NCBI GenBank assembly: GCA_021810505.1
Contig: JAJZIR010000001.1
Location: forward strand, 310,001-374,000
Source: a bacterium
GTDB lineage: Bacteria > Deinococcota > Deinococci > Deinococcales > Deinococcaceae
DNA length: 64,000 nucleotides
Reading direction: 5' to 3'
Part shown: positions 3,763 through 26,457 of the stretch, in pieces
How positions within the stretch are numbered: position 1 is the stretch's first letter
How the letters are laid out: each line of letters starts with the position of its first letter
Position numbers and translations under genes: made by a program
Notes under the pieces: generated by a model
Database searches by the model: none
The model's input: only the letters and a program-made list of their open reading frames with translations
Told to the model about the DNA's origin: nothing

Positions 3763-3824
3763 CGGTAGTAGACAATTAACGCCGCTCGGCAAAGCCGACG
3801 GTTAGAATGCGAAAAGGTGCTCAT

Positions 3825-6800
3825 ATGGAATCTATGGCCCCTGAACTTGATGATCTGCTCAACGATGACCGGCTAGCGCGGCTGTTCTCGAAGGATGCCC
3901 GCCACTGCGCGTTGCAGCTGTGGATTTTGCAGATCAAGTCCGGGCAATCCATTGAAAATCGCGTCATCTACGGCCGCCTTCTCCCATACGGCCATGCCGG
4001 CGACAACTGGTACGCCAGTGACAACGACGACTTCGAGTCCTTTGGGGAATATCAGGCGCAGGTCCGCCGGCTCAACCTGTATGTCAAAAGTGCCAAGTGT
4101 GCAGCGTTGTTGCGAGGGTTGAGCGCTGGCCGGAGCGTCGTGGAGGTCAGCCAAGATCTGAACATCGGACTATCGGATCGGTTGAAAACACGGTTCGGAG
4201 CGACCACGCTCGCCGCCGATAACCTCGTCTACCGCCCCGTCGCTTACCTGCTCAACCGCGATGCGTATGGCGAACGTTCGCCTTCCAGCCCGCATGGCGG
4301 AGCTGGGGCCTTCAGCGCGTCGATCACCCAGACCGGCAAAGGGGCGCTGTTCCGCCTGGGTCAGGACTACGACGTGACCTTGACCGCATCGGTGATCAAA
4401 CACATCAACAAGGATACTGGGCTGGACTTTGGGGGTACCGACATCGCCAGGTTCGGCGACCTCGAGCTATTAGTATTTCCTACGCTGGATGATCAGGAAC
4501 GTCGCTTGCTAAACGTGAGCTGGGCCGATAATCCGCGAGCCCTTATCGCCCGATTCAATCCGATGCAGGTACCGTACTTCAGTGGCTTCCAGTTTCGCCT
4601 GAGTATCGCGAATGGCGGCCAAATCGCCTATTCGGGTATCGCCACTGCAGCAAAAGATGTGAACGGCATTTTCGAATGCAAGTTCGAGCTGAGCGACCAG
4701 CTACGCGCCAGAACCGACAGTACCGAACTGGAGATATTCGGCTTCCATGGCGACCCGTCCAGCCAGGGCACACTGTGTTGCCGGTGGCGAATCGGGTACA
4801 TCCGGGAGGTCAATTTCCAGGGACATGTGGTGGGTCAAGGCGCCACGCCTGTCAAGTTCGACTGGCTGGGGAAAACCACGCGGCCGGCCATGTTAGAGCG
4901 AGTGAATGCAGCGCTTACGCTTAACCGTGGTAATACGGGGTTTGCCAACCACATTGGTGGGCGCAAGGCGGACCCTTGGGTTCCAGTTAACCGCGAACTC
5001 GTTTCCCTTTTTGCGCGGCTCCATCCGCCAAAGTCAGAGGGGCAGTTCTTCCTGCGCTGGGGCCAGGGCGATGGCGAGGGGCGACTGCAATTCGTGGAGT
5101 GGTTCAAGGCGCTGCTGGCCAAGTATCAGCAGCATCAGATAGTCATTTTCGATCCCTATTTCGATGCCGCCGGCTTGGGTCTGGTGTTGCTCTGTGCGGG
5201 ACAGAATGCCGATTACATCGTCTTCACGTCTTTACCAAAGCCATCGAAGGAGGTCGAAGCCTCGCAGGGCGAATCGGATCTGCCAACCTCGGGCCGGGTT
5301 AACAATCTGGTGGCGAGTTGTGAGCACAACAGCCAATTACTGAAACGCATCAAGCTGCGTATCTACGGCATAAAGGAAGGCCGGCTACATGATCGCTACA
5401 TCCTGGTCATGGGAGCGGACAGGCTACCGGTCGCAGGTTTCAACCTGTCCAACTCGTTTCAAAAAGCTGCTGAAAACTACCCCTTGCTGGTCACCCCGAT
5501 CCCTGCGGATGTTCTGCTCAAGGTTGAGCAATATAAGTCCGGCCTGGTGCAGGAGGCGATGGCTACGCCGCCCGATGGAGAGATCGAGAATCCCTCCATG
5601 CGGCTTCTCTTTGATTCTACGGCATCGCCTACAGCGCCGCGACGCTACGAACCACTACGCTTCCTAGAAAACGCTAAGGCAGGCGATGTGCTGAGTGTAT
5701 GGATCAGCGAGCCGTCGCTGCAAGGCTTGAGCGGCGATTCGTTGAAGGAGCAGATGACGGCGCTGAACCTGATCAAGGATGGCTCGCTCGCGCTGCCCGA
5801 GGAGGCAGGCCTGCGCAATTGTCTGAATTCGCAGTCGGGCAATTTCGCGGGCTTTACGGCGGCCTGGGAGGTGCTCGGCGAGGTGCTCGCACACTCACCT
5901 TTCGGAGACTACCGCTTTCACGAGATCGAATCCGAGCGTGGCTTTCTGGAATTCTTGGCACGATTCCTAAAGGCATCGTTCAACCGCGCGCATGACGAGG
6001 TGGACAAGGAACTGGCCGTGGTGGACGCCCGGTTTTTTCTAGAACCAGTCGAGACACTGCTGCACAGCCCTTATCACGTACATCATCTGTTCCATGCGAC
6101 AAAATACGCAGCCCTGACTTGGGCGGAGTACTTTACCATCAAGTTTCTGTGGTGGTATGCACCAAATGCCCTGCTGGCGATCGCCGAGACCCAGGTGGCC
6201 AGCTTGCCAATGGAGCCTCAAGGTTCGGATGTGATGCGTTTGTCTCTATTGAGCCAGATCGTCAGCGAAATTGCGTTGTCGGTGCAGCAGTTCGACATCA
6301 GCGACGCACAACGGGATCGACTTGTTCGCAGCGGCAATGGCCTCCTGCAATGGATGGGACTGAATGCAATTGAGATGCAACTGGAAAAGACGGGAGATCT
6401 CACCACAGTGCTGCAGTTGTTGGCCAAATATACTGACCAAGAGCAGGTGCGTACCCTGGGCTGGATGGTTCAGCACGCGGCAGGGAATCCGCAAAAGGCC
6501 GAGATCTACAAAGGTCTGGTCGCGGCGCTGCATGAGACACTGCCGTCGACGATCCCCGCAGACGTGTTGCAGTGCTTGGTCGACTCCATGCGAGGTCATA
6601 TGCGGCAACTGGCTTGGGCCGAGCCATGGCTATTTCAGGACGTGGTCTTTCCCTTGTTGCAGAATGGGCGCGCCAACACCGACGACGCCTGCGAGATCTG
6701 GGTGCAGGAACTGGCCAGCATGCTGGAGCCACAGATGAAGGACCGGTCGCTGCTGTTTGACCGAGCGCGCGAGGGCCAGACGACCAACATCACAGCATTC

Positions 6801-7157
6801 CTCTTCGCCTACAGCAGTCCCGAGCGGCAGCAGGTTAGCTTGAAATCGATGCAGGAGATCCTGAATCGGCAGAAACGGATCGTGCAACAGCCCCTCGCCA
6901 GCACCTCGGACTGGACCCGGTGGGACCGCGCCCTGATGGTCTCGATGTGGATTTTGGTCTTCACTAGATGGGCGCAGTATTACCTGTGCAATGGCGGCAT
7001 GACTAACTGCGAGCTGGAGGATCTGTCGCGGGACGCCCACGAGCTTGCGATGGTCAGGCCGATGAGCGAATGGCGGTCGAAGAGCGCCGGCAAGCAGGGC
7101 GAGATCGCCGCGTTCCTCGACCAAGTGGAGGAACTCCTAGCATCAAGCGACGAGTAG
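3825..7157 (+). CDS. Large VPA1262/phospholipase-D-like defence-associated protein
   Basis: A protein of about 1110 residues. The N-terminus (LFSKDARHCALQLWILQIKS, then NRVIYGRLLPYGHAGDNW) resembles the family annotated as VPA1262 N-terminal domain, from memory of family annotations. Around residue 522 the segment LHDRYILVMGADRLPVAGFN resembles the second HKD-like motif of phospholipase-D-type nucleases; the preceding stretch HQIVIFDPYFDAAGLG fits the same fold. The C-terminal half is helical with no motif I recognise. I place the start at the ATG at 3825 because AAAAGGTG lies 6-7 bases before it; an in-frame ATG at 3807 has no comparable ribosome site. It lies downstream of hsdR and the IS element and shares their lower-GC composition. 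A role in anti-phage defence is inferred from the neighbourhood and PLD-like motif only. Confidence 0.65.
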   Translation: MESMAPELDDLLNDDRLARLFSKDARHCALQLWILQIKSGQSIENRVIYGRLLPYGHAGDNWYASDNDDFESFGEYQAQVRRLNLYVKSAKCAALLRGLSAGRSVVEVSQDLNIGLSDRLKTRFGATTLAADNLVYRPVAYLLNRDAYGERSPSSPHGGAGAFSASITQTGKGALFRLGQDYDVTLTASVIKHINKDTGLDFGGTDIARFGDLELLVFPTLDDQERRLLNVSWADNPRALIARFNPMQVPYFSGFQFRLSIANGGQIAYSGIATAAKDVNGIFECKFELSDQLRARTDSTELEIFGFHGDPSSQGTLCCRWRIGYIREVNFQGHVVGQGATPVKFDWLGKTTRPAMLERVNAALTLNRGNTGFANHIGGRKADPWVPVNRELVSLFARLHPPKSEGQFFLRWGQGDGEGRLQFVEWFKALLAKYQQHQIVIFDPYFDAAGLGLVLLCAGQNADYIVFTSLPKPSKEVEASQGESDLPTSGRVNNLVASCEHNSQLLKRIKLRIYGIKEGRLHDRYILVMGADRLPVAGFNLSNSFQKAAENYPLLVTPIPADVLLKVEQYKSGLVQEAMATPPDGEIENPSMRLLFDSTASPTAPRRYEPLRFLENAKAGDVLSVWISEPSLQGLSGDSLKEQMTALNLIKDGSLALPEEAGLRNCLNSQSGNFAGFTAAWEVLGEVLAHSPFGDYRFHEIESERGFLEFLARFLKASFNRAHDEVDKELAVVDARFFLEPVETLLHSPYHVHHLFHATKYAALTWAEYFTIKFLWWYAPNALLAIAETQVASLPMEPQGSDVMRLSLLSQIVSEIALSVQQFDISDAQRDRLVRSGNGLLQWMGLNAIEMQLEKTGDLTTVLQLLAKYTDQEQVRTLGWMVQHAAGNPQKAEIYKGLVAALHETLPSTIPADVLQCLVDSMRGHMRQLAWAEPWLFQDVVFPLLQNGRANTDDACEIWVQELASMLEPQMKDRSLLFDRAREGQTTNITAFLFAYSSPERQQVSLKSMQEILNRQKRIVQQPLASTSDWTRWDRALMVSMWILVFTRWAQYYLCNGGMTNCELEDLSRDAHELAMVRPMSEWRSKSAGKQGEIAAFLDQVEELLASSDE

Positions 7158-7232: not shown

Positions 7233-7363
7233 CTAGCAGCCTGTCGGAGTTTCGATTTTGCAAAAACACAACGCATTGATTGCAAAGCATATTTGCAAAT
7301 TTTAAGAAAATAGCCGGTGCAATAGAATCAGTGGGTTACGCGAATACTCCGACAGGCTGCTAG
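7233..7363. mobile_element. 131-bp MITE-like element with perfect 18-bp terminal inverted repeats
   Basis: CTAGCAGCCTGTCGGAGT at 7233-7250 is the exact reverse complement of 7346-7363, and the similarity continues loosely inward (TTCG against CGAAT). The AT-richer interior codes for nothing. This looks like the two ends of an IS with its transposase deleted. No autonomous parent is in the window, and I see no clear target-site duplication. Confidence 0.75.
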
Positions 7364-7406
7364 GACATTACCTGCAGTGCTTCGCTTGCTTCCTGGCTCG
7401 TTTTTT

Positions 7407-7488
7407 GGAAAACCTGTCCATACGGACAGGAATTTCCAACCAACAGCACCTTGCGGTTGATCGGGCGCGATTGCCAATTTCCAACCAA
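7407..7488. promoter_or_regulatory. Palindrome plus 13-bp direct repeat upstream of the membrane-protein gene
   Basis: CCTGTCC (7413-7419), loop ATAC, GGACAGG (7424-7430) forms a hairpin that extends outward through GGAAA and TTTCC to 7407-7437. AATTTCCAACCAA occurs at 7431-7443 and again at 7476-7488, 45 bp apart. The position 120-200 bp before the gene at 7609 suggests operator sites or remnant IS ends. The function is unknown. Confidence 0.45.
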
Positions 7489-7608
7489 GAGGACGGGAAA
7501 GCTCAGGTGTCATTTCAACTGCAAAATTGCGCCATTCCAACCCTAGATTGCAAATAGCCGGCAAAAGCAGCGACCTCGAGCAAACCCGACAAGAGGTGAA
7601 TCCGGTTC

Positions 7609-8988
7609 ATGCCCAACAGCAACAAAAAGCAGGCAAGCGAAAGAAGCGGAGTCCAACCGAGAACTCCACCAGCCTGGCTAATGGTTTTTGCCATCATAGC
7701 CATCCTTGCCCTATCGTTTGCTTTAGCCATCTTCGCCTCTAGCAAAGCAACCGCGGTTTCTGTGTTTCAAGCAATATTAGGCGGAGTCTTTGCTATCTCC
7801 GGAATTATCGTAGCCGCAGTTGCCGTGCTCACGCAGCTTAGTTTCAAGGAAAGCTTACGGTCTGAGGCTTCCAGGCTTGAAAAAGAGGTGCACGAAGCAA
7901 TTTTTAAGTTTCAAGAAGAAAATCGACAACAAATCCACCAGTACACTGAAAAAATAAATTCGATTTTTATGATCAAGGCGGTAGACCTAGTTAATGTTCC
8001 CAAGATCTATTGGCCTCAGAGAATCCGCGCGGGAGAAAGGGCTTGGAAGATCGATCCAGGTACCGCCGATGCCCTGGTGGCCCCAGCTCTGGGAGTCGAC
8101 CTGACCGAAGTGTGCCGTACCTACCACTGGGCAGCGCTCAGCGGAGGGATAGTAAATGAGGACCTGAACTTTGTCGGCCCCGGCCCAGCGAGTTTCCCTG
8201 CTGGACGCATACGCGTAGTCCCCCAGACGCTTCGCCTGGGCGATTACCCAGCGCTTGAGGCGCTAGAGTACCTCCAGCGCTATATCCAGTGGAGGAAGGG
8301 GCAGAGCCAGTACCCTACCCGGCGCGACCTCATCGCCGGAGCCTGCCTCGCGGAGATCTATGGATTCTTGGGCAGCTTCGACAAGATGATCGATCAACTG
8401 CGCCAGCTCATGGCCAATTTCGGGGGACTCCCCGAGGAAGCTCCCGGCTACGAGGAGGATCCCCCGGTGCGCTCGGACATCGATACCTACCTCAGAGCAG
8501 CTCCTAACGTCGCCATGTACTGCCGGGCCTGCCAAGGAAGGGTACTTGCACCTGGGACGAGGCATGACCAGAAGCAGCAGGTGAGGGACCAGCTGAAGCA
8601 GCTGGCGAGCATCTTGCAGCTCGATTTTCCGCTCGACGAAGCTGAAAAGCTAAGGAGCTGGACAGTTGCGCGGGCGAGGAGCTATTACCGCCGCCTCCTA
8701 GAAGCGCAGAGCCAAGGGCGATCTCTTTTTGGAGGCGACGTCTTCCATTGGCTGGCCATCTGCCTGAACGCCGAGCCGTTTCTGCAGCTCGTCGGGGTGT
8801 ACGCGATTCCGCAGGATCCTCCCCAGAGCCCACAGGGCAATCCAGAAAAAATCCAGATCGACCCCGACCAAGTTGAGTTCGGCCCTCCGATGCTGCGCTG
8901 GACAGATGGCCAGAATACGTCACGCAACGTGGAGATCGGCAGCCCTGAGTGCGACCAACTCGGCTACCTTTTGATCGTCCCGGCTTAG
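7609..8988 (+). CDS. Membrane-anchored protein of unknown function
   Basis: A 459-residue protein with a short basic N-terminus and two probable transmembrane helices (about residues 23-43, starting WLMVFAIIAI, and 52-75, VFQAILGGVFAISGII). A charged, probably coiled-coil stretch follows (about 80-120, rich in E, K, R and Q), then a soluble C-terminal domain of about 330 residues that I do not recognise. The start is supported by AGAGGTGA at 7592-7599, about 9 bases before the ATG. Base composition is intermediate between the left island and the host genome. It stands alone between a MITE-like element and the methylase cassette on the opposite strand, and a role as an accessory membrane component of defence is only a guess from position. 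Confidence 0.7.
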   Translation: MPNSNKKQASERSGVQPRTPPAWLMVFAIIAILALSFALAIFASSKATAVSVFQAILGGVFAISGIIVAAVAVLTQLSFKESLRSEASRLEKEVHEAIFKFQEENRQQIHQYTEKINSIFMIKAVDLVNVPKIYWPQRIRAGERAWKIDPGTADALVAPALGVDLTEVCRTYHWAALSGGIVNEDLNFVGPGPASFPAGRIRVVPQTLRLGDYPALEALEYLQRYIQWRKGQSQYPTRRDLIAGACLAEIYGFLGSFDKMIDQLRQLMANFGGLPEEAPGYEEDPPVRSDIDTYLRAAPNVAMYCRACQGRVLAPGTRHDQKQQVRDQLKQLASILQLDFPLDEAEKLRSWTVARARSYYRRLLEAQSQGRSLFGGDVFHWLAICLNAEPFLQLVGVYAIPQDPPQSPQGNPEKIQIDPDQVEFGPPMLRWTDGQNTSRNVEIGSPECDQLGYLLIVPA

Positions 8989-9117
8989 CCCGAGCCCGGA
9001 CTATATTCCTGGCAGCTCGACAAGAACCGCGCCGCCATCCCTGGCCCGGGGCACGCCGGCCTGCTTCCAGAAAGACCTAATAAAATCCGGCCCTCAGATC
9101 GGGACTCACCGGTTCCT

Positions 9118-9235
9118 ACGAGGACCAGACTGTTCAGGTTAGCTAGCAGGCAAAACTGCAGAGCAAGGCTCTGATCGCTGAGCAGCAAGGGAGCTTTGTG
9201 GCTGGTACCCACCCTAGGGAGCAAGGATCTTTTCT
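9118..9235 (-). pseudogene. Fragment duplicated from the 3' part of the adjacent N6-adenine methylase gene
   Basis: About 105-115 bp matches the methylase gene at 9961-10075 with scattered substitutions. Translated on the minus strand it gives LPRVGTSHKAPLLLSDQ, against LPRVGTGHTAPLLLSDQ in the intact gene. Both then continue as CLLANLNSLVL. The similarity ends abruptly on both sides. It is most simply the scar of a second or former methylase copy, or of a partial duplication. Confidence 0.8.
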
Positions 9236-9246
9236 GCACAGCATCA

Positions 9247-9474
9247 GTGCCAGATTCTACTAGGAGGTCGGTTTGCAGTACTCTCGATGAACTCTTTGGA
9301 GCCAGTCACCTGAGCCCAGTCATTCTTTTCGGTCACTACCGCACCGGACACTAACGTAATGCGATCGCGAACTAATGAGGCAACCGGGTTATCTAGTGGA
9401 CTATTTGCCAGTATGTACTTAGCACTTTGAAGCGGCTTGGATAGGTACAGGACGTTCGCAGCGGTATCGCGTAG
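9247..9474 (-). other. 76-codon open frame in phase with the methylase after its amber stop
   Basis: Directly after the methylase TAG (9475-9477) the same frame stays open for 76 codons and ends at TGA (9244-9246). The translation has a protein-like composition (NVLYLSKPLQSAKYILANSP, later ITLVSGAVVTEKNDWAQVTG), and its codon use is less GC-biased than the methylase. There is no good start codon near its beginning. It may be a former C-terminus cut off by a nonsense mutation, a readthrough extension, or a chance open frame. Confidence 0.35.
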
Positions 9475-12400
9475 CTAATCCTGAGCTAGCAGATCTCGAT
9501 CTCGGTAAGCCCCCAAAGTCAGCTCCATGGTCCGGTAGCGTCCAAACTTACTTGGACTTCTTTCCTTCTCCTTGAGGACCCGAAAAGTCTCGCTGGGATA
9601 CCCAGGCTCCACCGACTCCGGGTCCAAGATAAAACTGAGCTCCTCTTCATTCAGGCCGTAGAGCCTGGCGTAGTAGGCGTCTAGCTCAGCGCGCAGCAGC
9701 GCCCTGCGCTCGCCGTCGAAAACATAAGGCTGCCCTGGCTGCAAAGACGCCAGCGCAGTAGCCAGATCTCCCCTAGCTTCCTCCTTGAGCAAGGCCGCAA
9801 AACCGTCCAAGTCCCGGGCGGTGTAGACCAGCTCAGCCACCCGGGGGACGATATAGAGAAGGTCCTCAGGGCGGTAGTGCTCAGGGTGCAGCGCCGGGAA
9901 CTGCTTGAGGTAGTGATAGGTGACATGGGTCCCGCCCAGCTTCTGCCTAGCACAGTAATCGAGGACCAGGCTGTTCAGGTTAGCTAGCAGGCAAAGCTGC
10001 AGCGGTACCGGCTGGTCGCTGAGCAGCAAAGGAGCCGTGTGGCCGGTCCCCACCCTGGGGAGCACTGTGGCGATCACCGTCCTCTCGTCGGTCGCGCGCG
10101 CGATATCCCGCCAAGCGATCAGGTAAGGCTTATCCCAGCCCCTGGCGGCCAAGCGGCTCTCCACTTCGCGCTGGGGAACCCAGTAGCGGGGACGGATCGG
10201 CGCGGTCCGGTCGGCGGGCGCCGCGCTGCGGTCCCCTTCCATGTCGGCGTAGCGGTGGTCGTATTGCCAAAACATCTTGGCCTCCACTAGGGGCACTCCC
10301 TGGTCACTGAACAGGGGGGCGTCCGCAGACATCTGGAACATCATGAAGAAAGAGAGCCCCCAAGGGTTGCCCCCCGTCTCCTCCCACAGCACCGGCACCC
10401 TCTGGTAAATCTTCTTGGCTAGCCACAAGTCCCTCTGGCTGCGCAGCAGCGGTAGGCTTCCCGAGTTAGGGTTGAACAGCCTAAGCTCCGTTGGGCCGAG
10501 AGCGTAGTGCCTGCGGGGATCGCCTAAGTCCTCTGGGGAAGCCAGGTAAACGGCGAAGTCGGGAAGGGTGCTTGCCCGGGCGCGCTGCGCAGTGAGCAGG
10601 CAGAAGCGTTGGCGCGAGTCCACTGCTGGAAACAGCCCTTCTCGGTTCTCGAAATCGAACAGCGAGACCAGTTTTCGCTGCCCTACCAACGCCGCGAAGA
10701 AGGGCTGGCTCGCCCAGTCGGTAGCGACGCCGCTAGGGACCAAAATTCCTAGGCGACCTCCCTCCCGCAGCAGCCGCAGGGCCAACTCGGCAAAGAACAG
10801 GTAGGTGTTGGTATTCCCCCCAGCAGACAAAGGATAGAGACCGCTGCCCCCCAGGAACTGCTTCAGCGCGGCAGAAGCGTGCAGCGCTTCTTGGTAATCG
10901 GCGTAAAGAGCAGGATTGCTTTCGGCGAGCTCCTTGATCGCTTGCTTGCGGTGCACGTTCTTCTCCGCAGCGAGTTCCGGTAGGCGTCCCTTGAAGAATT
11001 CCTGCTCCTGCACTTCTAGTCTCTCCCAAGGTGGGTTGCCCAGCACGCAATCGAAACCGCCGCGTTCGAAAACCTCCGGGAACATCAGGGACCAGTGGAA
11101 GAAAGCCTGCTCACGGGCGATCTCGCTGATCGCCTGGTGCAGCGGCGCTAGAGACTCCCGCTGGGGACCAAACCTCAGGATCTCCAACTGTGTGCTGGTC
11201 AGAACCGGCGCGCCCTCCCGCTTGGGCAGAAAGAAAGCCGCGCACCAAGCGTCCCTGAGCAGCTTAAGGCGGTGGTAATCCGGATTCTGGTAGAGCTCTT
11301 CCAAGCGCAGCCGCTTGCGCTGCTGATCCGCCAAGCTCTCTTCGGGCAGCGCTAAGGTCTCCTGGACCTGATAGGTCAGCTCGCCCTGTCGGTAATCCAG
11401 AAGCCGGTCTATACCGACGGCGACTCTGTGGTTATCAGCCTTGAGGCGGCGGATGACCAGTTTATCATCCCCTGGTAGAGCGCCAAAAGCCTCCGGGGGG
11501 ACCCCTAGGGGATCCTCCCAGGCCCCCACCAAGCTGTTACCGCAGCGCACGTGGTACTCGAGCAGCCCCAAGGGTTTCCCTGGTTCGACGCTCTCGATCC
11601 AGAGCGCCACCCTACAGAGTTCGGCGGCCAAGGGGTTTTGGTCCACCCCGTAGATGCAGCGCCGCACCACCTCGCGCAGGGCGTGCTGGGGGGCAAGGAG
11701 GCCGACCGCCGCCACGTGCTCGGCCAAGCGCCGCGCCGCCGCCAGCAGGAAGTGGCCCGAACCGCAGGCGGGGTCGACTACCTTGAGCGCGAGCAGGGCT
11801 TCGCCGGGATCGGCCGGCTTGCTAGCCAGCACCTGGTCCACCAGGGGATCTAGCGCCGAGTGCACCAGCTCGCGCACCAAAGCGTCCGGGGTGTAGTAGG
11901 AGCCGGTCAGCTTCCTGGCCGAGCCCTTAGCCGAAGTACCCTCCTCTCCCAGCTGGAAGCGCCAGCGCCCATCTTGAACTGCCAGCTGGGGGCGCAGCTC
12001 CAAGAGCCCCTCGTAGACCGAACCCAGCTCTTCGGTGTCCAGGTCGCGGTAGTTCACCCTGCTTTGCAGCGCCTTGGCGTGCGAAGCGAAGCCCAGGGCG
12101 CCCACCGCCAGCAGCAGGTCGGCGTTGGGCAGTCCTGCTGCGTCCAGGTCAGGGCACAATTCCTTGGCGAAGAGACCGCCCAGCGCCGGGAGGCCGAGCG
12201 CGCTCTGGCCGCCGGCAAGCCCGGCGAAGACCACCTGCAGCCCCTCCCACAGGTCGCCGTGCAGGTCCAGCTGGCGCAGCCTGGCCCGCTCCAGCAGCCG
12301 GCTCAGCGCGTAGCCCTTGCGGTAGATCTCGCGCTGCTCGGCGGTGGCCGCCTCCGGGTGCAGCAGGCCGCGGCTCTCGGTCACCAGCAAGAACAGCATC

Positions 12401-13233
12401 CGGTAGATCAGCCGCAGCAGCTGCTGGAAGTAAGCCTCGGCGCTGAGGGTCCCTTCCGCCAGCCGGCCCCGCAGGGGATCGTTGGAGGCGGCAGCCAAAA
12501 AGCCGTCCCCCAGGTAGCCGAGGGCGGAGCGCACCCCGGCGCGCAGCTGCTCCAAGGCGCGCTGGCCGCTGACTTGGGCCTCCTGCAGCCAGCTGTCCCA
12601 GAGGCAGCGGCCCTGGACCTGCAGGAAGCGCGAGCCGTGCAGCAGCCGCCACAGCGCCGCGAATTCGCTCTGCAGCTCCTCGGTGAAGATCCGCTCCAAG
12701 TCGACGTCCAGGTAGGCCGGTCTGGTCAAGCTGGCCGAGCTGTGCAGCAGCCGCAGCCGCTTGGGATCGCCGACCAGAGCCCAGCGGAAGCTGCCCGAGC
12801 TCACCAGCTGGCGCATCAGCTCGAAGGGGGTGTGGCGGCCGCTCTCGCCGAAGTCAGCGGGCTTATCCAGCGGCGCACCGCGCAGCAGTACCGGCAAGCT
12901 GCCCTGGGCTAGGTAGCTCAGGGGAAAGCTGCGCTCCGCTACCGCCAGCTGGGGGCAGGGCTCCAAGCGGAAACCCAGAGCTTGCTCCAGAAGCGGCCCC
13001 ACATCCGCCGAGCGCGCCCAGAGGTCCTTGGCGATCTTCCAGGAGCGGGCCAGCTCCTCCTCGAACTCCAGCGAGCGGCTGATCCCGTAGTCGGCCTTGC
13101 CCTGGGCGCTGGCCGCCCCCGAGGCGGCCTTGAGCAAGAACTCCCCTTCGATCCAGCCGCCCACCGCGCTGATCGCGCCGAGCTGGCTGCCCGCCCGCTT
13201 GGGCTGCCGTCCCCTTTTCCCCCGAGGGCTCAC
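9475..13233 (-). CDS. N6-adenine DNA methylase of a DISARM-like cassette (DrmMI-like)
   Basis: A 1252-residue gamma-class adenine methyltransferase. The SAM-binding motif I DPACGSGHFL is near residue 487 and the catalytic NPPW motif (DCVLGNPPWERL) near residue 731. A long N-terminal region and a C-terminal part that probably includes the target-recognition domain surround the catalytic core, as in Eco57I/PglX/DrmMI-type enzymes. It would modify host DNA so that the partner helicases and nuclease spare it. I start it at the GTG at 13233: this overlaps the stop of the upstream helicase gene as GTGA, and family-like sequence begins there. The frame is open further upstream to 13974, but that is low-complexity Ala/Gly/Arg/Pro shadow translation of the helicase gene. 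It is the third gene of a minus-strand operon. A partial duplicate and an in-frame open extension lie just beyond its stop. Confidence 0.85.
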   Translation of the reverse strand: MSPRGKRGRQPKRAGSQLGAISAVGGWIEGEFLLKAASGAASAQGKADYGISRSLEFEEELARSWKIAKDLWARSADVGPLLEQALGFRLEPCPQLAVAERSFPLSYLAQGSLPVLLRGAPLDKPADFGESGRHTPFELMRQLVSSGSFRWALVGDPKRLRLLHSSASLTRPAYLDVDLERIFTEELQSEFAALWRLLHGSRFLQVQGRCLWDSWLQEAQVSGQRALEQLRAGVRSALGYLGDGFLAAASNDPLRGRLAEGTLSAEAYFQQLLRLIYRMLFLLVTESRGLLHPEAATAEQREIYRKGYALSRLLERARLRQLDLHGDLWEGLQVVFAGLAGGQSALGLPALGGLFAKELCPDLDAAGLPNADLLLAVGALGFASHAKALQSRVNYRDLDTEELGSVYEGLLELRPQLAVQDGRWRFQLGEEGTSAKGSARKLTGSYYTPDALVRELVHSALDPLVDQVLASKPADPGEALLALKVVDPACGSGHFLLAAARRLAEHVAAVGLLAPQHALREVVRRCIYGVDQNPLAAELCRVALWIESVEPGKPLGLLEYHVRCGNSLVGAWEDPLGVPPEAFGALPGDDKLVIRRLKADNHRVAVGIDRLLDYRQGELTYQVQETLALPEESLADQQRKRLRLEELYQNPDYHRLKLLRDAWCAAFFLPKREGAPVLTSTQLEILRFGPQRESLAPLHQAISEIAREQAFFHWSLMFPEVFERGGFDCVLGNPPWERLEVQEQEFFKGRLPELAAEKNVHRKQAIKELAESNPALYADYQEALHASAALKQFLGGSGLYPLSAGGNTNTYLFFAELALRLLREGGRLGILVPSGVATDWASQPFFAALVGQRKLVSLFDFENREGLFPAVDSRQRFCLLTAQRARASTLPDFAVYLASPEDLGDPRRHYALGPTELRLFNPNSGSLPLLRSQRDLWLAKKIYQRVPVLWEETGGNPWGLSFFMMFQMSADAPLFSDQGVPLVEAKMFWQYDHRYADMEGDRSAAPADRTAPIRPRYWVPQREVESRLAARGWDKPYLIAWRDIARATDERTVIATVLPRVGTGHTAPLLLSDQPVPLQLCLLANLNSLVLDYCARQKLGGTHVTYHYLKQFPALHPEHYRPEDLLYIVPRVAELVYTARDLDGFAALLKEEARGDLATALASLQPGQPYVFDGERRALLRAELDAYYARLYGLNEEELSFILDPESVEPGYPSETFRVLKEKERSPSKFGRYRTMELTLGAYRDRDLLAQD

Positions 13234-16006
13234 CGCGCCACCGGCAGCAGCGCGTAGACCCCGATCAGGTCGGGCGGCAGAGCCTCCACCTCGTAGCGCA
13301 CCCCGCGCTGCAGCGAAGCCCCCTGCACCCTGCAGTGATCGGCCAGCAGCTGCGCGGCCCGCTGCTCGGCCAAGCGGGCCAGCTCCCCCTCCAGCTCGGG
13401 GAGCCGCGAGAGCGCCTGCTGGACCAGGGCGCTGCGCTGCGCGGCCTCCATGTTGCGCTGGGGCTCCAGCTCGAGCAGCTCGGCGACCTCCCTGGCTTCC
13501 AGGGCCGTCAAGCTGCCAGCCAGGCTCTCTGCGCCCAGGCATTCCTCCACCAAAGTGAGGTGTTCGCCGCCCTGGCCCAGGCGGCGCAGGGCGCAGCGCA
13601 GGCGCAGCAGGTAGAGGGTGCGGCGCTGGGGCACCGCCACGAAGGCGGCGGCCGTCCGGGCCCGGGCGAATTCGGGTGCCCCCTCGGGCGACTCCCAAGC
13701 CAGCTCGCTGGCGTAGTCGGCCAGCGCCGCGGTGAGCGGGTGGGCGCGGTGGACGAGTTCGCTGCCTGGGGGCGCGGGCAAACTGAAGCTCAGCCGGCTG
13801 GGAACCCCTTGGACGCGCAGCCGCTCCGCCAGGGCGGGCGGCAGAGCGCCCAGCGCCAAGCCGAAGCTGCCGTCCCCGCGGGCTTCCAAGGGCGCCCCCA
13901 GGGCGGAGAGGGCTCTCTGGACGAAGCGGAAAACCTCCGAGGAGTCGCCCAGCAGGGCGGAAGTCCGCTCCCACTCCGCCAGAGCCTCCGCCGGGCGCAG
14001 CCGCCTCTGGGCGAAGATGGTCAGCTGCGCCGGGCCGCGCCGGGCGGCTTGCCAGAGCTGCTCGGTCTCAGGGGGTTCCTCGGCAGCGAAGTCGAAGACC
14101 GGCTGGTAGGAAGCGCTCAACACCCCGCGCATCACCCGCTCGATCAGCGCCGGCTCCACCGGCACCGGCACCGCGACCCCCAGCTCTTTGCGGATCCGCT
14201 CGGCCTTGCGCAGGATCACCTTGAGGATGGCCTCGTCCACCGGGTTGCCCTGGCCGTAGAGGGTCAGGATCCGCACCTTGGGAGCCGGCTGGCCGAAGCG
14301 GTCGACCCGGCCCTCGCGCTGCTCGTGGCGGGTGGGGTTCCAGGTCAGGTCGTAGTGCACCACCGCGTCGAAGGCCGACTGCAGGTTGATCCCTTCCGAG
14401 AGGCAGTCGGTGGCGACCAGCAGGCGGCTGCCCTCCTGCTGGCAGAGCTCCGCGACCAGCTGGCGGCGGGCGTCCGGGTCCAGCTCGCCGGTCACCACCG
14501 CGCTGGCGGCTCGGTCCCCGAACTCGGCCTCCAGCTCGGCTCCCAGGTAGTGGGCGGTGGCTTGGTAGCGGCAGAACACCACCGGGTTGAAGCCGGCGTC
14601 CAGCAGGGCGGCCAGCTCGGGGATCAGCGCGCTGAGCTTAGGGTCTTTGCCCTTGCCGCGCAGCCGGGCGCTGCGCTGGGCCAAGTCGTTCAGCTGCGCA
14701 GCTTCGGCGTCCGGCAAGGCCGCCGCCGGTCCGAGGTCGTCTGGGAGGTCTTCGCTGCTGTCTAGGACCAGCCGCTCCCCGCTCTCCTCCAGGGCGGGGA
14801 GCTCGCTCTCGCCCTGGACCTGCAGCCGGGTGCGCAGGGCCATCTCCGCCGCCGCCGGGCTCGAAGACAGGCAGCGCAGCAGCGCCAGGGCGGCCCAGAA
14901 GGACATCCGCCGCTGCAGCTGCCCGCCGCCCTCTGCCCGGCGCACCAGCTCCCTGGCGTAGGCCAAGACGTCGGCGAAGAGCTTTCCCCAGGCGCGGCCC
15001 ATGGGGTAGGCCAGCTCCCCCACTTCCCGCTGGGGGAAAACCTGGTCCCCCCAATCGGCGATGTCCTTACGGCGGCGCTGCACCAGCTGCAGGGCCAGCT
15101 GCTCGCGCAGGGCGCTGCGCCGCTCCCCTTCGGGCAGATCGGTCAGCTCGGCGAAGCGGGGGTCCAAAAAGCCGAGCAGCTGGGAGAAAGCCCGGTCGTC
15201 CCCGGAGTGGGGGGTGGCGGTGAGCAGCAGCAGGTGGCGGGGGCTGTCCGCCAGGGCCCGGACCAGCTGGTAGCGCTGGTGGCGGGCGGCGCCGGCCTGG
15301 ACGCAGCTGTGGGCCTCGTCGATCACCACCAGCTCCGGGCAGCTGGCCAGAAACTCGGCCCGGCGCCGCTCCGACTTGATGAAGTCCAAAGAGACCACGG
15401 TGTAGGGGTAGGCGGCGAACAAGGACTCCTCGGGGCCGAGGCCCCGCTCCAGGCGGGCCGCGCTCTGGCTGCGCACCACCGCGGCGTCCAGGGCGAACTT
15501 GTCCCGCAGCTCGGCCTGCCACTGATCGCAGAGGTAGGGCGGGCAGATCACCGTGAAGCGGGCTACCTCGCCGCGCTCCAAGAGCTCTTTGACGATCAGG
15601 CCGGCCTCGATGGTCTTCCCCACCCCGACGTCGTCGGCGATGAGGAGGCGCAGCCGCTCCATGCGCAGCGCCATCATCAAGGGGACCAGCTGGTAGGCCT
15701 TGGGGGAGAAAGCCAGGGCCGCGAAGCTGCGGAAAGGGCCGGCCCCCGAGCGGAACCTGAGCCGCAGGGCGCTCAACAGCAGCGCAGCCGCCGCCAGGTT
15801 GCCGGGCCGCTCCGGGCCGGGCGCAGGGAATCTGGCCGGGACCGGCGCCCGGCGCTCGGCCGCCAGCAGCAGCCAGGCTTCTTGCGCACTCGCCCCGCCC
15901 AGCGGCCGCAGCCGCAGCAGCTCCGCGGAGCTGCCCGGCAGCACCACCCACTCGCGGCCTCTGGCCCGCACCAGGTTGCCGGGAGAGAAGCGCGGCGGAG
16001 CGGCGC

Positions 16007-16010
<4 letters not shown>
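13230..16010 (-). CDS. SNF2-type helicase of a DISARM-like cassette (DrmD-like)
   Basis: A 926-residue superfamily-2 ATPase. Walker A is [20 protein letters not shown] near residue 125, the DEAH box is [10 protein letters not shown] near 227, and the TATPHSG motif follows. The second RecA-like domain carries the SNF2 signature [13 protein letters not shown] near 563. Length and motifs fit the RapA/HepA-like DNA translocases used in defence systems, including DrmD of class 1 DISARM. It should act as an ATP-driven motor on double-stranded DNA. The GTG start overlaps the preceding gene's TGA (GTGA), and its own stop overlaps the methylase start the same way, so all three proteins are probably made in fixed proportion. 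No nuclease motif is visible in it. Confidence 0.87.
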
Positions 16011-21166
<5,156 letters not shown>

Positions 21167-24301: not shown

Positions 24302-25963
24302 TTAGAAGCTCCAGTACTGGGGCGAGAAGCGGCCGATGTAGAGGTGGCCCCGAACACCGTGCAAGCCGGTACTGACCTCGTTGAGCGCGTCGGGAACCGG
24401 CATCCACAGCCGGGGTAGGGTCTTGGCAGCGTAGTCCTGGTAGCGGTAGAGCGCCTGCAGCGAGGCCGAGGGGCTGGCGTAGAGGTGGGTCTGGACGGTC
24501 AGCTGGTTCATCTTGGGGTCGTCGTAGCCACCGCGGTTAGAGCCGCCCTGGCTATTGAAGACCTGGTAGTTGCTGGGGTAAGGGTCGGTGCCGTAGAGCC
24601 AGCCCCCGAAGAGCTCGAGCTGCCAGGACTGCAGCTTGCCGAGCTGGGCGATCAGGGTGCCGAAAGGCATCGGCTGTAGGTGGACCGAGATCCCCTCCTT
24701 GGCCGCCGCCGCAGCGATCGCCTCGGCCTCGAGCTGGATGTACTGGCTGCCGACCGCGTAGGCCAGGTTGAGGACCAGGCGCTGGCCACCCTTGACCATC
24801 ACCCCACCCTGCAAGCTCCAGCCCGACGCCTCGAGCAGGCGCTTGCCGGCCCGGGGGTTATAGGGATACGGGACAGTGGACTTGAGGTAGGGACTCAAGT
24901 AGGTCGGGGGCACGTAGGGGACCGGACCGTACTGGGCAACCCCCTGACCGTGCAGGAAAGCCTTGACCATCCCTGGCTGGTTGATCGCCATCTGCAGCGC
25001 TTGGCGCACCGGCAGAGAAGCTAGCTCGGGAGCCTGGCGGTTCTTGAAGTTGGCGTCCATGTAGTACATAGCCCACAGCGGGGTCGACCAGAAACGGAAT
25101 CCGGAGATCTGGCGCTGAGCGTAGAGGTGCGCCGGGAGGTAGCCCACCTGGATCTGGCCGTCGCGCAGCGCGTTGTATTCCGCGTCGGTGCTGGTGAAGT
25201 AGGTTAGGACCAGCCGCTGGTAGTCGGCCCGGTGCCCGGAGTAGGCGGGGTTGGCAGCGAAGATGAAACGCTTGTTCAGCTCGAGGCTTGAGACCTTGAA
25301 GGGCCCGTCCACCGGGCTGCTGCGGAAAAAGCTCTGGCTGTCGCCGCGCGCTTGCAGGTACGCCAACGTCTTGGCCGGATGGCCGGGGTAGCGGTCCCAG
25401 GCCTGCTTGGGCAGCGGGGTGATCAGGCTGAGGCCGTTGAGAATGAACCACTGTGGGTTGTAGCGGCCGTTCAGGGTGATCTCCAGCCGGTAGCGGCTGA
25501 GCTGGCGCGCGCTGACGATATCGTTGGGCACCCCACCGCCGCCCCAGCCGCCAAAGAGGTTGGATTTGCCGGCGGGAATCGAGCGCAGCAGGCGGATATC
25601 GAACAGGACGTCTTTGGCTGTCACCGGCTGTCCGTCCGACCAGCGCCACTTGGGGTTCAGAGTAATGAAGTAGTGCTTGCCGTCAGCCGTCTTGACCGAC
25701 TGGGCCAGGGAGCGGGTGTAGTTGACCTGGACTTTGGAGTTCACGAAGACCAGCGGGCGGTAGAGCAGGCTCTGGACGTAATGGATATTGACCGAAGCGT
25801 AAAACTGGCTGGGCGTGATCGGAAAGAGGTAGGTGATGTTGGTCGCGGCCGGCAGGGCGAAACGGATGGTGGAGCCAGGCTGCGCTGCCAGGCCAGCCGC
25901 CGTCAAGAGCGCGGCGGCAACCAGCAGCCTAGGGCTGAGGCGGAAAAAAGCTGAGCGGGGCAT
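24302..25963 (-). CDS. Extracellular solute-binding protein, family 5 (peptide/nickel type)
   Basis: A 553-residue binding protein of the oligopeptide/dipeptide ABC transporter class. It has a Sec signal peptide (FFRLSPRLLVAAALLTAAGL, ending near AAQ). Family-5 landmarks are WRWSDGQPVTAKDVLFDIRL, RQALQMAINQPGMVKAF and, near the C-terminus, ELFGGWLYGTDPYPSNYQV. It would capture a peptide or similar ligand outside the membrane. No permease or ATPase genes accompany it, so it must work with a transporter encoded elsewhere. I choose the ATG at 25963 because the signal peptide follows immediately and TACAAT sits five bases upstream. The open frame continues upstream to 26386 but is not protein-like. 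It lies between the two copies of the duplicated module. Confidence 0.88.
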   Translation of the reverse strand: MPRSAFFRLSPRLLVAAALLTAAGLAAQPGSTIRFALPAATNITYLFPITPSQFYASVNIHYVQSLLYRPLVFVNSKVQVNYTRSLAQSVKTADGKHYFITLNPKWRWSDGQPVTAKDVLFDIRLLRSIPAGKSNLFGGWGGGGVPNDIVSARQLSRYRLEITLNGRYNPQWFILNGLSLITPLPKQAWDRYPGHPAKTLAYLQARGDSQSFFRSSPVDGPFKVSSLELNKRFIFAANPAYSGHRADYQRLVLTYFTSTDAEYNALRDGQIQVGYLPAHLYAQRQISGFRFWSTPLWAMYYMDANFKNRQAPELASLPVRQALQMAINQPGMVKAFLHGQGVAQYGPVPYVPPTYLSPYLKSTVPYPYNPRAGKRLLEASGWSLQGGVMVKGGQRLVLNLAYAVGSQYIQLEAEAIAAAAAKEGISVHLQPMPFGTLIAQLGKLQSWQLELFGGWLYGTDPYPSNYQVFNSQGGSNRGGYDDPKMNQLTVQTHLYASPSASLQALYRYQDYAAKTLPRLWMPVPDALNEVSTGLHGVRGHLYIGRFSPQYWSF

Positions 25964-25968
25964 GGCGC

Positions 25969-25974
25969 ATTGTA
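25969..25974 (-). promoter_or_regulatory. -10 element TACAAT, leaderless transcript
   Basis: TACAAT on the minus strand lies five bases before the ATG of the binding-protein gene, so the mRNA would begin at or next to the start codon. Confidence 0.5.
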
Positions 25975-26457
25975 ACAGGGGAACTCGGCGGCGGCTCCGC
26001 GAGCAGCTATACAGGTCCCTCGGCAGCGCGAGCCCGCGGGCAGCGGAGTGCGACGAACCCCAGCTGCCACAGAGCGCCCTACCGGAGAAGGGCTTCCGCG
26101 CGTCCAACTCGGGGTCGGCGCAGGGACTTTTTCTGATTGATAAGGAACTGTCCCTGGATAGGTCAGGTGACGTCCCCTGAAACCAGCCTCCGGGGGCGCT
26201 GCTGGCTGGCTGAACTAGGGAGCCTGAACCATACCCTCTCTCGGGGAAGAGACAGGGGTTCCCCTTTCCTGTTGGTTGGGTACGCGCCCTTCCCCGGCAC
26301 CCCCTACCTGGTTCCGGAGTTCTAGATCCCACCCAGGTACCTACCTTTTTGTCTATCCGTCTTCGCTTAGGTGGGCGCCCTTCCACCCAGGCCTGCCGGC
26401 TCAGGGCGCGCCGTAGCTCTTCAGTCCACCCAACCAGAGGCCTCGAGGCTTTCTTTT
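25975..26457. other. Intergenic stretch without recognisable features
   Basis: I find no gene, RNA or convincing hairpin between the binding-protein start and the left end of repeat copy B. The open frames here have no ribosome sites and are not protein-like. Confidence 0.5.

Follow-up and report, generated by a model that had tools for sequence, protein, structure and literature searches.

The stretch of DNA analysed here (the window) comprises 64,000 nucleotides of a genome of the Deinococcaceae (GenBank assembly GCA_021810505.1, contig JAJZIR010000001.1, positions 310,001 to 374,000). It carries, on the minus strand from position 21166 to 9475, a cassette of three co-directional genes in which an earlier reading of the letters alone (hereafter the original prediction) had seen a variant of the DISARM anti-phage system. 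The open reading frames were confirmed at the coordinates first reported for them:

21166..16007, minus strand: gene 1 (armC-like), ATG start, 1719 residues; YprA-family SF2 helicase with fused DUF1998/MZB and a predicted C-terminal Vsr/EDxHD-type nuclease domain.
16010..13230, minus strand: gene 2 (armA-like), GTG start, 926 residues; SNF2/RapA (BrxHII/DrmD/DpdE-like) helicase.
13233..9475, minus strand: gene 3 (armB-like), GTG start, 1252 residues; PglX/DrmMI-like N6-adenine methyltransferase.

Both gene junctions are GTGA start/stop overlaps (..GGCGTGAGCG.. and ..GCGGTGAGCC..), and together with the frame coordinates they bear out the coupled minus-strand operon described at the outset. Pfam matches (gene 1: DEAD, Helicase_C and MZB, equal to DUF1998; gene 2: SNF2 and Helicase_C; gene 3: Eco57I and N6_Mtase) agree with the helicase, DUF1998, SNF2 and methylase content assigned earlier, and every motif quoted then was recovered and is highly conserved among relatives. 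Since these relatives (32-54% identity, mostly full-length, in about 80 genomes of many phyla) keep the gene order, the cassette is not a product of chance.

Sequence comparison indicates that the cassette is very probably an intact ARMADA Type I anti-phage system with the order armC-armA-armB. It is a relative of DISARM and not a compact DISARM, and ARMADA Type I itself was already described in 2025. ARMADA systems combine two components in common with DISARM with a YprA helicase closest to that of Druantia (Bell et al. 2025, PMC12458937, preprint). In Type I the order is YprA, BrxHII-like, PglX-like, and a Vsr-type nuclease, predicted to be active, forms the C-terminus of the YprA protein; in Type II, ArmD is added to genes in the order A-B-C, and a reversed Type I arrangement occurs in many archaea and cyanobacteria (PMC12458937). 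The presence of helicase, DUF1998 and Vsr nuclease on one protein is the standard ARMADA form, the split into drmA and drmB being peculiar to DISARM (PMC12458937). The genes in the window, a YprA helicase, a BrxHII/RapA helicase and a PglX methylase, follow the Type I order, and the exact architecture put forward as a new variant is thus that of an already named system. Best matches in PADLOC were DruE3 for gene 1 (DruE, 308 bits), DpdE and then DrmD (310 bits) for gene 2 and DrmMI (221 bits) for gene 3, a mixture which neither DISARM nor Druantia fits.

The product of gene 1 is resolved into the following parts:

20345..20887, minus strand: RecA1/DEAD domain, residues 94-274 (PF00270, 3.6e-24), with Walker A K119 and DELH D236.
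18407..20329, minus strand: ARMADA/Druantia-lineage insertions between RecA1 and RecA2, approximately residues 280-920 (motif spacing, model, cysteine conservation).
18122..18394, minus strand: RecA2/Helicase_C, residues 925-1015, with QRSGRAGR (PF00271, 1.8e-8).
17576..17722, minus strand: long antiparallel helical hairpin after RecA2, residues ~1149-1197 (model: two helices of 22 residues each).
16490..16765, minus strand: MZB/DUF1998 zinc domain, residues 1468-1559, with C1551, C1555 and C1558 (Pfam, cysteine conservation).
16049..16369, minus strand: predicted Vsr/EDxHD-type PD-(D/E)xK nuclease domain, residues ~1600-1706, with E1614, D1644, D1657, H1661 and D1670 (model, fold match, profiles).

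Its motifs lie at residues 114-120 (GTGSGKS), 236-239 (DELH), 1006-1013 (QRSGRAGR), 1642-1647 (RPDFSY) and 1654-1661 (IFVDGGPH), with the DUF1998 signature CEAGCYRCLLSYYNQ at 1551-1565, and K119 and D236 are conserved in 100% of the aligned relatives. The insertions between RecA1 and RecA2, which show as long stretches from motif III to RecA2 and hold two CxxC pairs (C459/C462 and C569/C572), have a spacing similar to that of ARMADA II and Druantia and are absent from YprA/MrfA. Likewise, RecA2 is separated from the conserved block that follows by 191 residues here and 195 in Escherichia coli ARMADA II, versus 117-126 in YprA/MrfA. An AlphaFold model of residues 50-1245 (mean pLDDT, the predicted local confidence score, of 86) shows after RecA2 the helical hairpin reported as a feature of ARMADA YprA proteins (PMC12458937); the top fold match of the helicase core is MrfA (6znp). 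The protein therefore unites helicase and DUF1998 with the ARMADA/Druantia insertions and the helical extension, as in Type I. Departures from this form occur elsewhere: 13 loci, mostly of Bacteroidota (L065-L073, L076, L077, L080 and L081), encode ARMADA I-type helicases without 10-11 of the 11 zinc-binding cysteines, the DUF1998 cluster included, and at L119 (G025; 6264 and 7966) an ARMADA I helicase is broken near residue 757 into adjacent frames of 931 and 1171 residues, a naturally occurring counterpart of the drmA/drmB split of DISARM.

The last part of the protein is predicted to be a Vsr-type PD-(D/E)xK nuclease with its active-site residues intact, as expected of Type I. Residues ~1600-1706 form a compact domain in the AlphaFold model, mostly with pLDDT >90, and the best PDB fold match found by Foldseek is the catalytic domain of I-Bth0305I (probability 0.99, E 0.023), the enzyme that typifies the EDxHD homing endonucleases, a group similar in active-site motifs and mechanism to restriction-type PD-(D/E)xK enzymes (PMC3943268). 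E1614, D1644, D1657, G1658, H1661 and D1670 are invariant across 40 relatives. Family matches to the domain among 46 relatives were DUF559 (38/46), MTES_1575 (17) and Vsr (3), and profile comparison with the nuclease of E. coli ARMADA II gave an E-value of 2e-10. The nuclease-like domain that was said to close the large protein is consistent with all of these data, and structure prediction did not reveal the lack of a nuclease fold in the last 120 residues that would have told against it. E1614, D1644, H1661 and D1670 are now specific targets for probing the nuclease.

The remaining two proteins also retain their catalytic motifs. Gene 2 encodes the motif QREGRVDR and the conserved residues K132 and D231, and in gene 3 two methylase motifs were located:

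11755..11775, minus strand: methylase S-adenosylmethionine motif DPACGSG, ArmB residues 487-493.
11026..11037, minus strand: methylase catalytic motif NPPW, ArmB residues 733-736, N733 being equivalent to E. coli N971.

In E. coli ARMADA II every gene is required and protection is non-abortive; ArmC K110/D234, ArmA K136/D236 and ArmB N971 are essential, and ArmB G605 partly so (PMC12458937). All six E. coli positions examined are conserved in the window (ArmC K119/D236, ArmA K132/D231, ArmB G491/N733). E. coli ArmC residue numbers run 4 higher in our residue alignment than in the published account, because the frame used begins upstream of the annotated start.

The scan of species genomes recovered 80 loci with relatives of gene 1. 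The three-gene order, whose recurrence the original prediction had proposed to count, is kept across many phyla: C-A-B was found in 27 of the 29 loci flanked by 7.5 kb or more on each side (the others being one C-B and one C alone) and in 23 of 27 other loci with at least 3.5 kb on the right. Within the same clade, the methylase precedes the helicase in Nostoc (L126), Phormidium (L047), MAG-56 (L052) and MS-B (L054). Among order-level relatives a gene 1 match was present in 10 of 61 genomes, the host included, mostly at 41-48% identity, with two at ~35% belonging to a different lineage. The closest homologues (53-54% identity) occur in Gemmatimonadetes and Chloroflexi, and the cassette is also plasmid-borne, on Deinococcus radiodurans MP1 and on one Roseomonas plasmid. 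Given that other phyla reach 53-54% while members of the same order mostly stay at 41-48%, and that occurrence is patchy, horizontal transfer is the straightforward reading of these patterns. Two unusual loci were also encountered. At L039:10001-17612 the gene directly after a Type I-like ArmC encodes a UvrD helicase resembling ArmD (32% identity), and neither ArmA nor ArmB was matched within ~10 kb. At L129 (G009, 7298-12985) a 1896-residue YprA-family helicase, followed by a 698-residue frame with weak UvrD similarity, branches deeply between the main clades and possibly represents a further lineage.

The helicase tree included an ARMADA II set from E. coli, Streptomyces, Gemmobacter and Pseudanabaena, recognised by A-B-C-UvrD operons, along with E. 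coli Druantia III, one DruE1-like protein, two DISARM DrmA and a YprA/MrfA outgroup. The window helicase falls in a 73-member clade of ARMADA I-type helicases (support 0.99), ARMADA II and Druantia DruE each form a separate clade (support 1.0), and the two DrmA lie outside the clade of the cassette; support is weak at some deep nodes (0.32-0.73), and long branches lead to the DrmA proteins. As the published Type I reference WP_108720193.1 was left out of the tree and of direct comparison, and in view of those nodes and branches, the assignment to Type I draws on gene order and architecture no less than on the tree. Other points count against it as well: identity to the E. coli ARMADA II proteins is low (23-30%), the Foldseek E-value of the nuclease domain is modest, DUF559 on the window protein alone scores 20.5, just below the Pfam cut-off of 20.6, and published experiments concern Type II, which depends on ArmD, a fourth gene absent from Type I (PMC12458937).

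A compact class 1 DISARM, as the original prediction held, in which drmA and drmB had become one gene and a new nuclease domain stood in for drmC, would account for the DUF1998 of gene 1 and for the DrmD and DrmMI profile matches of genes 2 and 3 (310 and 221 bits in PADLOC). We consider it very unlikely, as the curated cut-offs are missed by far in the searches against Drm models that had been advised as a check (DrmA 15.8 versus 950 bits, DrmD 347 versus 610), the best PADLOC matches of genes 1 and 2 are DruE3 and DpdE, and the unsplit cassette is found across many phyla. Proteins of the YprA family moreover usually have helicase and DUF1998 unsplit (PMC12458937), and this helicase resembles those of Druantia and ARMADA more closely, so that the supposed drmA-drmB fusion is not borne out. 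A genuine drmA and drmB pair exists elsewhere in the genome, ~24 kb from the cassette; the cassette itself has no DrmB_fam match, the sole one in the genome being at C8:289648-291414. Neither the cassette nor those neighbouring proteins of the window that were scanned gave a PLD-nuclease match that could represent DrmC; PADLOC's PLD_Helicase match on gene 2 is confined to the helicase part of that protein. What survives of the DISARM-like label is an anti-phage type of cassette with a YprA helicase, an SNF2 protein and an adenine methylase in common with class 1 DISARM; membership in DISARM fails with the curated models and the missing drmC.

Equally improbable is a Druantia system, with a DruE-type helicase, that gained an SNF2 helicase and a methylase. 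DruE profiles are the top PADLOC matches of gene 1 (308 bits), and its best PDB sequence match is 9tu7, a DEAD/DEAH helicase of 2108 residues that is probably a Druantia DruE judging by length. However, no partner (druH or druABCD/MFG) was seen among the window proteins scanned, which fell short of a family scan of all flanks, DruE of Druantia III ends in PLD domains (PMC12458937), and the DruE proteins form a separate and fully supported clade. Least probable of all is a housekeeping or DNA-repair operon of MrfA/YprA type, favoured by the structural match of the helicase core to MrfA but opposed by the patchy occurrence in 10 of 61 related genomes, by the closest relatives lying in other phyla, which implies horizontal transfer, by the location in one island with drmAB, VPA1262 and type I restriction genes, and by plasmid-borne copies elsewhere.

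The left part of this island occupies contig C8 from 271 to 312 kb, the window starting at 310001. The drmA (1174 bits) and drmB (570 bits) genes lie there at G000:C8:289648-294911, minus strand (L113/L114), both above cut-offs, with no drmC, drmD or drmMI beside them; the gene after them, across a gap of ~200 bases, encodes a UvrD helicase whose N-terminal repeat is duplicated. That this pair and the ARMADA I cassette form one mixed system, with ArmA and ArmB, which are homologous to DrmD and DrmMI, acting for both helicases, seems very improbable. Also in the left part, on the plus strand, a single 1687-residue protein (L114:5865-10925) fuses DEDD exonuclease, DinG-type helicase and RecQ/DpdF-type helicase; it may be a defence gene as yet without a name, and a coiled-coil protein comes after it. 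On the same strand a type I restriction system, hsdM-hsdS-(PIN_2 domain gene)-hsdR, runs from L114:14633 to window position 2485, with the toxin-like PIN gene between hsdS and hsdR and an intact hsdR of 1076 residues that extends into the window.

Inside the window the island goes on to include an ISL3 transposase and, at 3807-7157 on the plus strand, a VPA1262-family protein (1270 bits), which occurs in 0 of 60 related genomes. The latter is the protein at 3825 that had been taken as PLD-like; it gave no PLD match. The protein at 7609 has no clear family match. Both genes, considered as possible cassette members, were rejected, being on the opposite strand and never beside other copies of the cassette. 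A family-5 solute-binding protein (window 24302-26386) has 11 other occurrences, making twelve matches in this 2.3-Mb genome (G000), and no comparable protein was matched in six relatives at E <1e-30, so that a right-hand island boundary by synteny was not obtained. As a whole the island resembles the Zorya-Druantia-ARMADA arrays of E. coli, with DISARM core genes here.

From the gene content and order, domain folds and catalytic motifs observed here, and from homology to a tested system, a helicase-nuclease restriction mechanism with translocase and methylase can be proposed, and we give it an even chance. ArmC, a YprA-type SF2 helicase, would load onto exposed single-stranded or junction-containing foreign DNA and translocate, its zinc-rich OB-CON-DUF1998 'canopy' gripping a DNA strand and its C-terminal Vsr/EDxHD nuclease domain cutting the DNA; with a nuclease domain of its own, ArmC would make a separate PLD protein unnecessary. 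ArmA, the RapA/BrxHII-like translocase, and ArmB, the PglX-like adenine methylase, would complete the complex, ArmB acting either in self-marking of host DNA or as part of the sensing machine, and the outcome would be direct, non-abortive restriction. This is supported by analogy with the E. coli ARMADA II data, with the related Druantia III DruE, which uses 3' single-stranded DNA for loading and cuts long DNA (PMC13192584), and with DISARM DrmAB, which discriminates by DNA structure, methylation sensing having been proposed (PMC9142583). Protection, DNA cleavage and a role of methylation in the host organism itself are what we infer from these parallels.

Among the named systems, DISARM class 1 has homologous helicase, DUF1998, SNF2 and methylase components and differs in its split drmA/drmB, its PLD drmC and the failure of its curated models on this cassette. 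Druantia DruE is the closest large helicase-DUF1998 family after ARMADA and has similar insertions, but it has other partner genes and PLD or inactive Vsr C-termini, and forms a separate clade. The architecture is assigned to Druantia, Dpd and DISARM by 2023 profile libraries, a likely annotation error that is corrected here.

ARMADA Type II (E. coli ATCC 8739, ECOLC_RS20870-20885) has the same three protein families, the same catalytic residues and a homologous nuclease domain, whereas its order is A-B-C-D, its ArmD is a RelE-UvrD fusion and 336 residues follow the PD aspartate, against 75 here. An identity as ARMADA II was rejected because of this gene order and because no ArmD adjoins the cassette, the nearest UvrD match lying ~40 kb off and leaving the N-terminal 217 residues of ArmD uncovered.

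No essential difference between the cassette and ARMADA Type I was found: the gene order, the fused DUF1998, the C-terminal Vsr-type nuclease, the lack of a fourth gene and the order-reversed relatives in cyanobacteria are the same, and this copy differs in that its island also holds drmA and drmB and a type I restriction system. The locus adds an intact Type I copy with all examined catalytic residues in place. Type I is widespread, yet the activity data in PMC12458937 cover Type II only, and this copy and that on plasmid MP1 of D. radiodurans R1 (DR_RS16130-RS17030) offer ways to ask whether Type I protects without ArmD. The MP1 copy has the same three-gene order and an ArmC 42% identical to that of the window, and is annotated merely as helicases and methyltransferases, its methylase being two annotated genes.
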